From Spartobacteria bacterium (lineage in GTDB: Bacteria > Verrucomicrobiota > Verrucomicrobiia > Chthoniobacterales > UBA6821), in the NCBI GenBank assembly GCA_947466005.1, contig CANIBV010000003.1, forward strand, positions 1 through 53,387: 53,387 nucleotides of DNA, written 5' to 3'. Under the pieces are notes generated by a model. It made no database searches, had not been told where the DNA came from, and saw only the letters and a list, made by a program, of their open reading frames with translations. The translations under genes were made by a program, and so were the position numbers. Below, piece by piece: positions 12,239-35,345 of the stretch (position 1 is its first letter; each line of letters begins with the position of its first letter).

Positions 12239-12255
12239 GAATTTTTGTGTGCCTG

Positions 12256-12271
12256 TGTTCCATGTGGAACA
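12256..12271. promoter_or_regulatory. parS-like palindrome upstream of mnmG
   Basis: TGTTCCATGTGGAACA is identical, in inverted orientation, to the site at 11472-11487. A shorter relative, TGTTTCATGGAACA, lies at 12383-12396 and lacks two central bases. Placement beside mnmG and AT-rich DNA fits a centromere-like site for ParB. Confidence 0.55.
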
Positions 12272-12462
12272 TTTATATAAATATCTACCTATTAGGTAAT
12301 TATTATAAATTTATTCTTTTCTTTTCGTTCGTTGATGAATTGTGAGTGTTCTGTGAACCCTTGTGGGGAGATGGGATACTTTTGTTTCATGGAACATGTT
12401 TCCCGTCGGGGGCTACCAATGGCTCCATCCAGGTTCACACGGTTATTGGTTCTGTAGCTCTC

Positions 12463-12471
12463 TGTGGATAA
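12463..12471 (-). promoter_or_regulatory. DnaA box TTATCCACA
   Basis: TGTGGATAA on the plus strand is the perfect consensus DnaA box on the minus strand. It sits in the AT-rich intergenic region next to mnmG and is accompanied by two 8-of-9 matches within 100 bp. Confidence 0.6.
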
Positions 12472-12656
12472 GGGGATTAAATGGTCTTTGAACAGGTTCT
12501 TCACACTATTATTATTAAGAAGTACCTCTTTAAAAAAGAAATCTATCCATCATCCGTGTGAATATCTTCTTTGAGCCAAGTAGTGGGTTGAGATCAACAA
12601 GCTGGCACAAGAAATCTTTCAGCTGAGCCGGGAGTCGAGTTAGATTCTTAATCCTC

Positions 12657-24885: not shown

Positions 24886-24937
24886 TTGACGCAGCGCGAT
24901 CAACAACTTATTCACATTCACCAGTGAGTTATTCACA
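24886..24937 (+). promoter_or_regulatory. Promoter with overlapping direct repeat TTATTCACA
   Basis: TTGACG (24886-24891), a 17-bp spacer and TATTCA (24909-24914) form a good sigma-70-type promoter for the H1-like gene. A 9-mer TTATTCACA, which matches the relaxed DnaA-box consensus TTWTNCACA, covers the -10 (24908-24916). It recurs 21 bp downstream (24929-24937) in the same orientation, two helical turns away. A related TTTTCACA follows at 24941-24948. Binding of DnaA or another factor here would compete with RNA polymerase; this is inference. Confidence 0.5.
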
Positions 24938-24969
24938 TTGTTTTCACACTCGCCGCCCATGCGGTAAAA

Positions 24970-24978
24970 AGGAGGTGG
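24970..24978 (+). promoter_or_regulatory. Strong Shine-Dalgarno of the H1-like gene
   Basis: AAGGAGGTG is nearly full anti-Shine-Dalgarno complement, placed about 6 nt before the ATG at 24985. Most other genes in the window have weak sites, so this gene is probably very highly translated. Confidence 0.8.
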
Positions 24979-24984
24979 ATTGAA

Positions 24985-25185
24985 ATGCCCATTAAGAAAA
25001 AAGCTGCAAAGAAAGCTCCCGCCAAGAAAGTCGTCAAGAAGGCTCCTGCCAAGAAAGTCGTCAAGAAGGCTGTAGCAAAGAAGGCCCCCGCCAAGAAAGT
25101 GGTGAAGAAGGCCGCTGCGAAGAAAGTCGTCAAGAAGGCTCCTGCAAAGAAAGCCGTCAAGAAGGCCGTCGCAAAGAAGAAATAA
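24985..25185 (+). CDS. Histone H1-like lysine-rich DNA-binding protein
   Basis: The 66-aa protein is almost entirely Lys, Ala, Pro and Val, in repeats of 'KAPAKKVVKK' and 'AVAKKAPAKK', ending 'KKAVAKKK'. It resembles the tail of eukaryotic H1, Chlamydia HctB and AlgP/AlgR3-type proteins and is expected to bind DNA non-specifically and compact the nucleoid. There is no globular domain. It has a strong promoter, a near-consensus Shine-Dalgarno and a strong terminator, so it forms an isolated, highly expressed unit. The DNA itself is a chain of near-identical 15-30 bp repeats, so copy number may vary between strains. Confidence 0.9.
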   Translation: MPIKKKAAKKAPAKKVVKKAPAKKVVKKAVAKKAPAKKVVKKAAAKKVVKKAPAKKAVKKAVAKKK

Positions 25186-25229: not shown

Positions 25230-25267
25230 TTGGGGGAAGCGCCACAAACGCTTCCCCCAATTTTTTT
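25230..25267 (+). terminator. Rho-independent terminator of the H1-like gene
   Basis: TTGGGGGAAGCG (25230-25241) and CGCTTCCCCCAA (25249-25260) form a perfect 12-bp stem with a 7-nt loop, followed immediately by seven T residues. Confidence 0.95.
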
Positions 25268-34784: not shown

Positions 34785-35345
34785 GCTTGGGGCCAACACT
34801 CGACCTCGCCAGAGAAGATTTTATATGGGGCTCAGGGGAGGCGGCTTGGTTTGCCTCGCCAAACGCTGATGACAGCCCGCGCGTCGTTTTTCCGTTCCTG
34901 AGGTTCCTATTACTCACCGGACCCCGGAGAGCTGCCAGTCGAGGCCACCATCTTACGCCAACGCATCACTTTCATCTTCGGAGTTCGGGTTTAAACCATT
35001 CTCGGCGCGGCTCATTGGAGGCCTGGAGGGCGGAAACGCTCAAACCGCTGCACCCGCAGGACGACAGTTGTGAATAACTTGTGTGTATCCCTGCGGATGT
35101 TGGTTCCCAAGCTCTGTGGAACAGCGCTCATTCCAAAGAGCGGCACCCCACTTCTTACTAGAGAGAAGAGGCTTTTTTGCGTGGAACATACTCTGAACAA
35201 GGGCCGATGCGGCCTGTTCAGGTGACGATTCCGTAACATCCGATGCAATCTGGCGATACGGCCGGTAGGGACGATTTTGCCAGTGATCGAAGGCCTGTGA
35301 ATAAGTGTCTCTGGCTGCGATAAAAACGGTGCGGGCCGTATGGAA
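34785..35345. other. Gene-free stretch with two DnaA-box-like 9-mers
   Basis: No convincing gene is seen in 561 bp; the track ORF at 34787 has no family resemblance and poor composition. TTATTCACA occurs on the minus strand at 35069-35077 and 35296-35304. TGTGGAACA (near 35114-35122) and CGTGGAACA (near 35180-35188) match the right half of the parS-like palindrome at 12256. It separates the TonB operon from the convergent yggU gene. Function unknown. Confidence 0.45.

Follow-up and report, generated by a model that had tools for sequence, protein, structure and literature searches.

The repeated 9-mer upstream of the gene for a lysine-rich, H1-like protein is, in our reading, a DnaA operator at which DnaA would cover both the -10 element and the start region and so repress this gene; from comparison of sequences, we put the probability of this reading at roughly two in three. 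The window, that is, the whole stretch of 53,387 nucleotides analysed here, is part of a 1.55 Mb draft genome that is 77% complete. The original prediction described a same-orientation repeat of TTATTCACA with copies 21 bp apart, and both copies were confirmed on the + strand at 24908-24916 and 24929-24937, with a start-to-start spacing of 21 bp. The repeat is real and larger than described, as a third box, GTTTTCACA, was missed; it occupies 24940-24948 and begins 2 bp past box 2. Boxes 1 and 2 match the consensus TTWTNCACA exactly and box 3 has one mismatch. The count of TTATNCACA in the window is 5, against a shuffled mean of 0.38, and 5 was never reached in the shuffles. The features of the locus are as follows.

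24886..24891, + strand: -35 element TTGACG of the H1-like promoter (sequence; mean identity 0.99 in 32 promoters)
24908..24916, + strand: candidate DnaA box 1, TTATTCACA, over the -10 element (mean identity 0.99)
24909..24914, + strand: -10 element TATTCA, within box 1, 17 bp past the -35 element
24921..24923, + strand: predicted transcription start in the conserved CAGTGA, placed by its distance from the -10 element
24929..24937, + strand: candidate DnaA box 2, TTATTCACA, in the start region and 5' leader (mean identity 0.99)
24940..24948, + strand: candidate DnaA box 3, GTTTTCACA, forming a tandem double DnaA box with box 2
24953..24964, + strand: leader hairpin CCGC-CCAT-GCGG, with covarying pairs (C-G to U-A, C-G to A-U)
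24970..24975, + strand: Shine-Dalgarno sequence AGGAGG (sequence; conserved)
24985..25185, + strand: H1-like lysine-rich protein of 66 aa with (A/P/V)KK repeats
25230..25260, + strand: intrinsic terminator of the H1-like gene

The first copy had been said to cover the -10 element of a good promoter. The overlap with the -10-like TATTCA held, whereas "good" was too strong, as a strict sigma-70 consensus scan called no promoter at the H1-like gene because the -10 element lacks the final T. Across the order the -10 position reads TAnnnn, mostly TATTCA and also TAGTCA, TACCAA or TAACCA. TTGACG and its spacing are very probably the core promoter of the gene, because both are kept across families, and the CAGTGA between boxes 1 and 2 probably contains the transcription start; GTGAG also occurs in family f8, which has no boxes. 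Lysine makes up 30 of the 66 residues of the protein, which had no match in Pfam and matched the NCBIfam histone H1-like models weakly and far below the cut-off, the protein of a relative scoring stronger. It resembles the Hc1/Hc2/BpH1 type and is not filed as a member, as it falls below the curated family cut-off. The gene is flanked by coaBC-like and suhB-like genes. Since its pairs covary, the leader hairpin is an RNA element distinct from the boxes; across the order, such a CCGC-N4-GCGG hairpin directly precedes the unusually strong Shine-Dalgarno sequence of the H1-like gene (24953-24975 in the window).

The upstream DNA of the H1-like gene was matched in all 16 genomes of the genus, 15 of which carry the exact TTATTCACA pair while the sixteenth has one mismatch, and the pair is far beyond chance. 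In the genus alignment, TTGACG, the two 9-mers, CAGTGA, box 3 and the Shine-Dalgarno sequence are invariant, and the sequence between them varies. With up to one mismatch allowed, the pair was found in 38 of 213 genomes, and the adjoining gene was nearly always H1-like in families f1, f7, f11, f12 and f13. A search with a promoter profile found the H1-like promoter in 153 of 210 genomes of the order Chthoniobacterales (Verrucomicrobiota), its order-wide parts being TTGAC(G/A), a -10 element starting with TA, the hairpin and the strong Shine-Dalgarno sequence. A global scan for the N12 pair gave at least 80 loci, among which were at least 14 H1-like promoters, all from Verrucomicrobiota. Boxes 1 and 2 are kept in four families (f1 with genus g1, f7, f11 and f13), and the promoter in f12 has boxes 2 and 3. 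The distance from box 1 to box 2 is 20, 21 or 22 across the order, and boxes 2 and 3 are separated by 2 bp in 42 of 45 promoters; of the other three, two have a gap of 3 bp and one a gap of 1 bp. In 32 promoters, mean identity was 0.99 for box 1, 0.99 for box 2 and 0.90 for box 3, and 0.52 for both the -35/-10 spacer and the gap between boxes 2 and 3. The search for the 9-mer upstream of H1-like genes in relatives, which had been proposed as a check, thus found strong conservation across families and not the lack of it that was named as refuting.

The same comparison sets a limit on the role of the boxes. They are absent from the H1-like promoter in f2, f4, f5, f8, f9 and genus g2, and because of these losses, control of the H1-like gene by the boxes is not universal; since families without boxes exist, the link would also not be essential to the gene. 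In f4, f5 and f9 a double box is retained at dnaA though the boxes have gone from the H1-like promoter. In f9, this promoter has another conserved inverted repeat (ACGAATGTTCGT) and a CGAAT repeat (L410-L413, L442), which are perhaps a replacement operator.

The box-less lineages also bear on the idea that the conservation reflects a core promoter plus a stem at the 5' end of the mRNA (GUGA...UCAC), and not a protein site. Box 1 does overlap the -10 element, and the AGTGA before box 2 can pair with TCAC in box 2; in L075 and L416 the resulting stem is 6 bp long. However, box 2 is kept in L060 and L061 despite the lost GTGA half, boxes 1 and 3 lie outside the stem, and the families without boxes retain the -35 element, the TA-starting -10 element, the hairpin and the Shine-Dalgarno sequence and differ in sequence where the boxes would stand, so we give this explanation only a very slight chance. 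Both copies are one and the same 9-mer, yet just one overlaps the -10 element.

The reason why we favour DnaA as the binding protein is, in the first place, the tandem spacing. Boxes 2 and 3 stand in tandem at 2 or 3 bp in 44 of 45 promoters, and the in vivo binding of DnaA in E. coli is chiefly to double boxes with a gap of 2 or 3 bp (PMC11317965). The double DnaA boxes of E. coli (polA, purH, nrdA, mioC and dnaA; PMC11317965) are likewise same-strand tandem 9-mers 2-3 bp apart, and they resemble the H1-like site in combining one perfect with one degenerate box at a promoter. The H1-like site differs from them in its target, an H1-like packing protein, which is absent from the 16 ChIP regions of that study (PMC11317965), and in the third box on the -10 element about 21 bp upstream. 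In the H1-type order, TTATTCACA-NN-nTnTTCACA, the motif occurs at 74 places in 65 genomes, with none in the controls, and 46 of these places are H1-like promoters according to a manual comparison with the promoter-profile coordinates. Among unselected TTATTCACA sites in four genomes, a second box stood at gap 2 in nine sites (about five loci once orthologues collapse), compared with 0-2 sites at each other gap.

The second reason is the presence of the double box at dnaA itself. The form TNTTCACA-NN-TTATTCACA was found in 96 of 210 genomes of the order, and in none with the reversed control; of the 50 double-box loci inspected, which are the basis of this tally, dnaA is the downstream gene in 43 and ksgA in 3, and the remaining 4 lie elsewhere. 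As in dnaA autoregulation, the same double box precedes dnaA in five families, f4, f5, f9, f11 and f12 (L447-L471, L475-L487, L489-L491, L493, L494), where some 200-300 bp separate it from the start downstream, whereas the H1 site lies over the promoter core. The genus of the window departs from this pattern, as no such box was found upstream of its dnaA, and we therefore rejected autoregulation of dnaA through a double box in this genus. Upstream of ksgA, at about 60-90 bp and on the opposite strand, a conserved TTATTCACA and, 2 bp away, a degenerate second box were seen in several families (L164, L170:1913, L189:2355, L200:2302, L446, L488, L495).

In domain IV of DnaA, R399, D433 and H434 are kept, the contact residue T435 is G in the order, and P423 is I in the genome of the window; these positions follow the E. 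coli numbering. Because of the change at T435, the site specificity of DnaA could differ from that in E. coli. This substitution, the absence of a box at the genus' own dnaA and the sharing of the site with ksgA and a few other genes would suit another transcription factor whose site resembles a DnaA box. Nevertheless, the same double box precedes dnaA in most of the loci inspected, the tandem spacing of 2-3 bp is the DnaA rule, and TTATTCACA is also part of a probable oriC located close to a skew minimum; we thus consider another factor unlikely and DnaA the favoured candidate. The original prediction of control by DnaA, or by another factor that binds this 9-mer, is accordingly supported at the level of sequence by the conservation, the 2-bp tandem spacing, the double box at dnaA and the probable oriC.

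The probable oriC just mentioned belongs to family f11. On contig C2 of genome G107, the cumulative skew is lowest at about 65-75 kb, with a second dip at about 105-110 kb, and a cluster near the skew minimum holds TTCTTCACA twice, TTATTCACA and a parS-like site. In this cluster (L151:14840-15100, at about 75 kb), the tandem TTCTTCACA copies are accompanied by the parS-like site and by TTATTCACA, after which come CGCTT and (AAG)n repeats, and we regard it as the probable oriC of f11. The H1 locus itself was rejected as oriC, since the box cluster, the parS-like site and the skew minimum of G107 lie elsewhere on the contig. In the window, an AT-rich intergenic region upstream of gidA/mnmG (12239-12656), aligned in 16 genomes of the genus, carries a parS-like GTTCCATGTGGAAC (12257), TTATCCACA (12463) and conserved TTCACA boxes beside AATAATAA. 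This region is a probable replication origin because of its AT-richness, parS and conserved TTCACA boxes only; the GC skew in the genus showed no switch there. As an order-wide origin marker, gidA was rejected because it fails in f11.

The distance to the origin is relevant to the idea that the boxes serve to store or reactivate DnaA, as datA or DARS do, and came to lie at the promoter by chance, H1 expression being beside the point. In the window, the H1-like promoter is 12.4 kb from the probable origin and this distance is kept in the genus, and datA and DARS of E. coli are double DnaA boxes. However, the position of the boxes relative to the -35 element, the -10 element and the start is fixed in four families while their chromosomal position shifts, the distance from gidA to H1 being 12.5 kb in the genus and 160-176 kb in G107 and G109, and we hold a mere reservoir to be quite improbable.

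For the operator reading, we propose that a DnaA dimer, probably of ATP-DnaA, would occupy boxes 2 and 3 and that further DnaA would bind box 1, 20-22 bp or about two helical turns upstream, where its occupancy would hide the -10 element and block RNA polymerase. Production of the H1-like protein would thus fall mostly into the time after initiation, when active DnaA is scarce and newly made DNA has to be packed, and its supply would be held down before initiation. Judged from position, the effect of DnaA would most likely be repression, and DnaA may instead have an activating role at this promoter. The sites, their spacing and their conservation, and the fact that they are identical to the dnaA-linked site, are established by comparison of DNA. 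Box 1 has no partner at 2 bp, which counts against the operator reading. We lean towards the view that DnaA directly times the supply of the H1-like chromatin protein in several families of Verrucomicrobiota, and that this link would have been gained or lost by lineage.

In eukaryotes, histone supply is coupled to S phase. The open literature searched yielded no bacterial case in which the initiator acts directly on a gene for a chromatin protein, and no paper in which DnaA controls a gene for a histone-like or nucleoid protein. Both double DnaA boxes and the role of DnaA as a transcription factor are already established; what appears to be new is the kind of target, namely an H1-like gene, together with the conserved operator layout among freshwater and soil bacteria of an uncultured order. 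Because the H1-like promoter bears the same paired sites as the upstream region of dnaA, these bacteria probably coordinate their supply of the putative packing protein with the timing of DNA replication. If this is true, initiation and nucleoid compaction would run off one switch, and if DnaA controls the gene, the lineages that lost the boxes would be natural controls; the uncultured order would also gain a usable definition of the DnaA site.

Within the same superphylum, control of an H1-like gene has been studied in Chlamydia, where hctA encodes the histone H1-like Hc1 and late genes are repressed by Euo. The Euo motif TTAAAAACAAATTTT is unrelated to the boxes of the H1-like promoter, and Euo was therefore rejected as the regulator here; it is confined to Chlamydiae and did not shift the hctA promoter of Waddlia (PMC4989314).

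Elsewhere in the window, about 550 bp at 34787-35335 contain no convincing gene; TTATTCACA occurs there twice on the - strand (35069, 35296), at a distance of 227 bp. A structured RNA at 34.8-35.3 kb was rejected, as Rfam and tmRNA searches gave no match. A similar pair, 225 bp apart, is present in genome G004, and the region could serve as a reservoir for DnaA or encode an unknown RNA.
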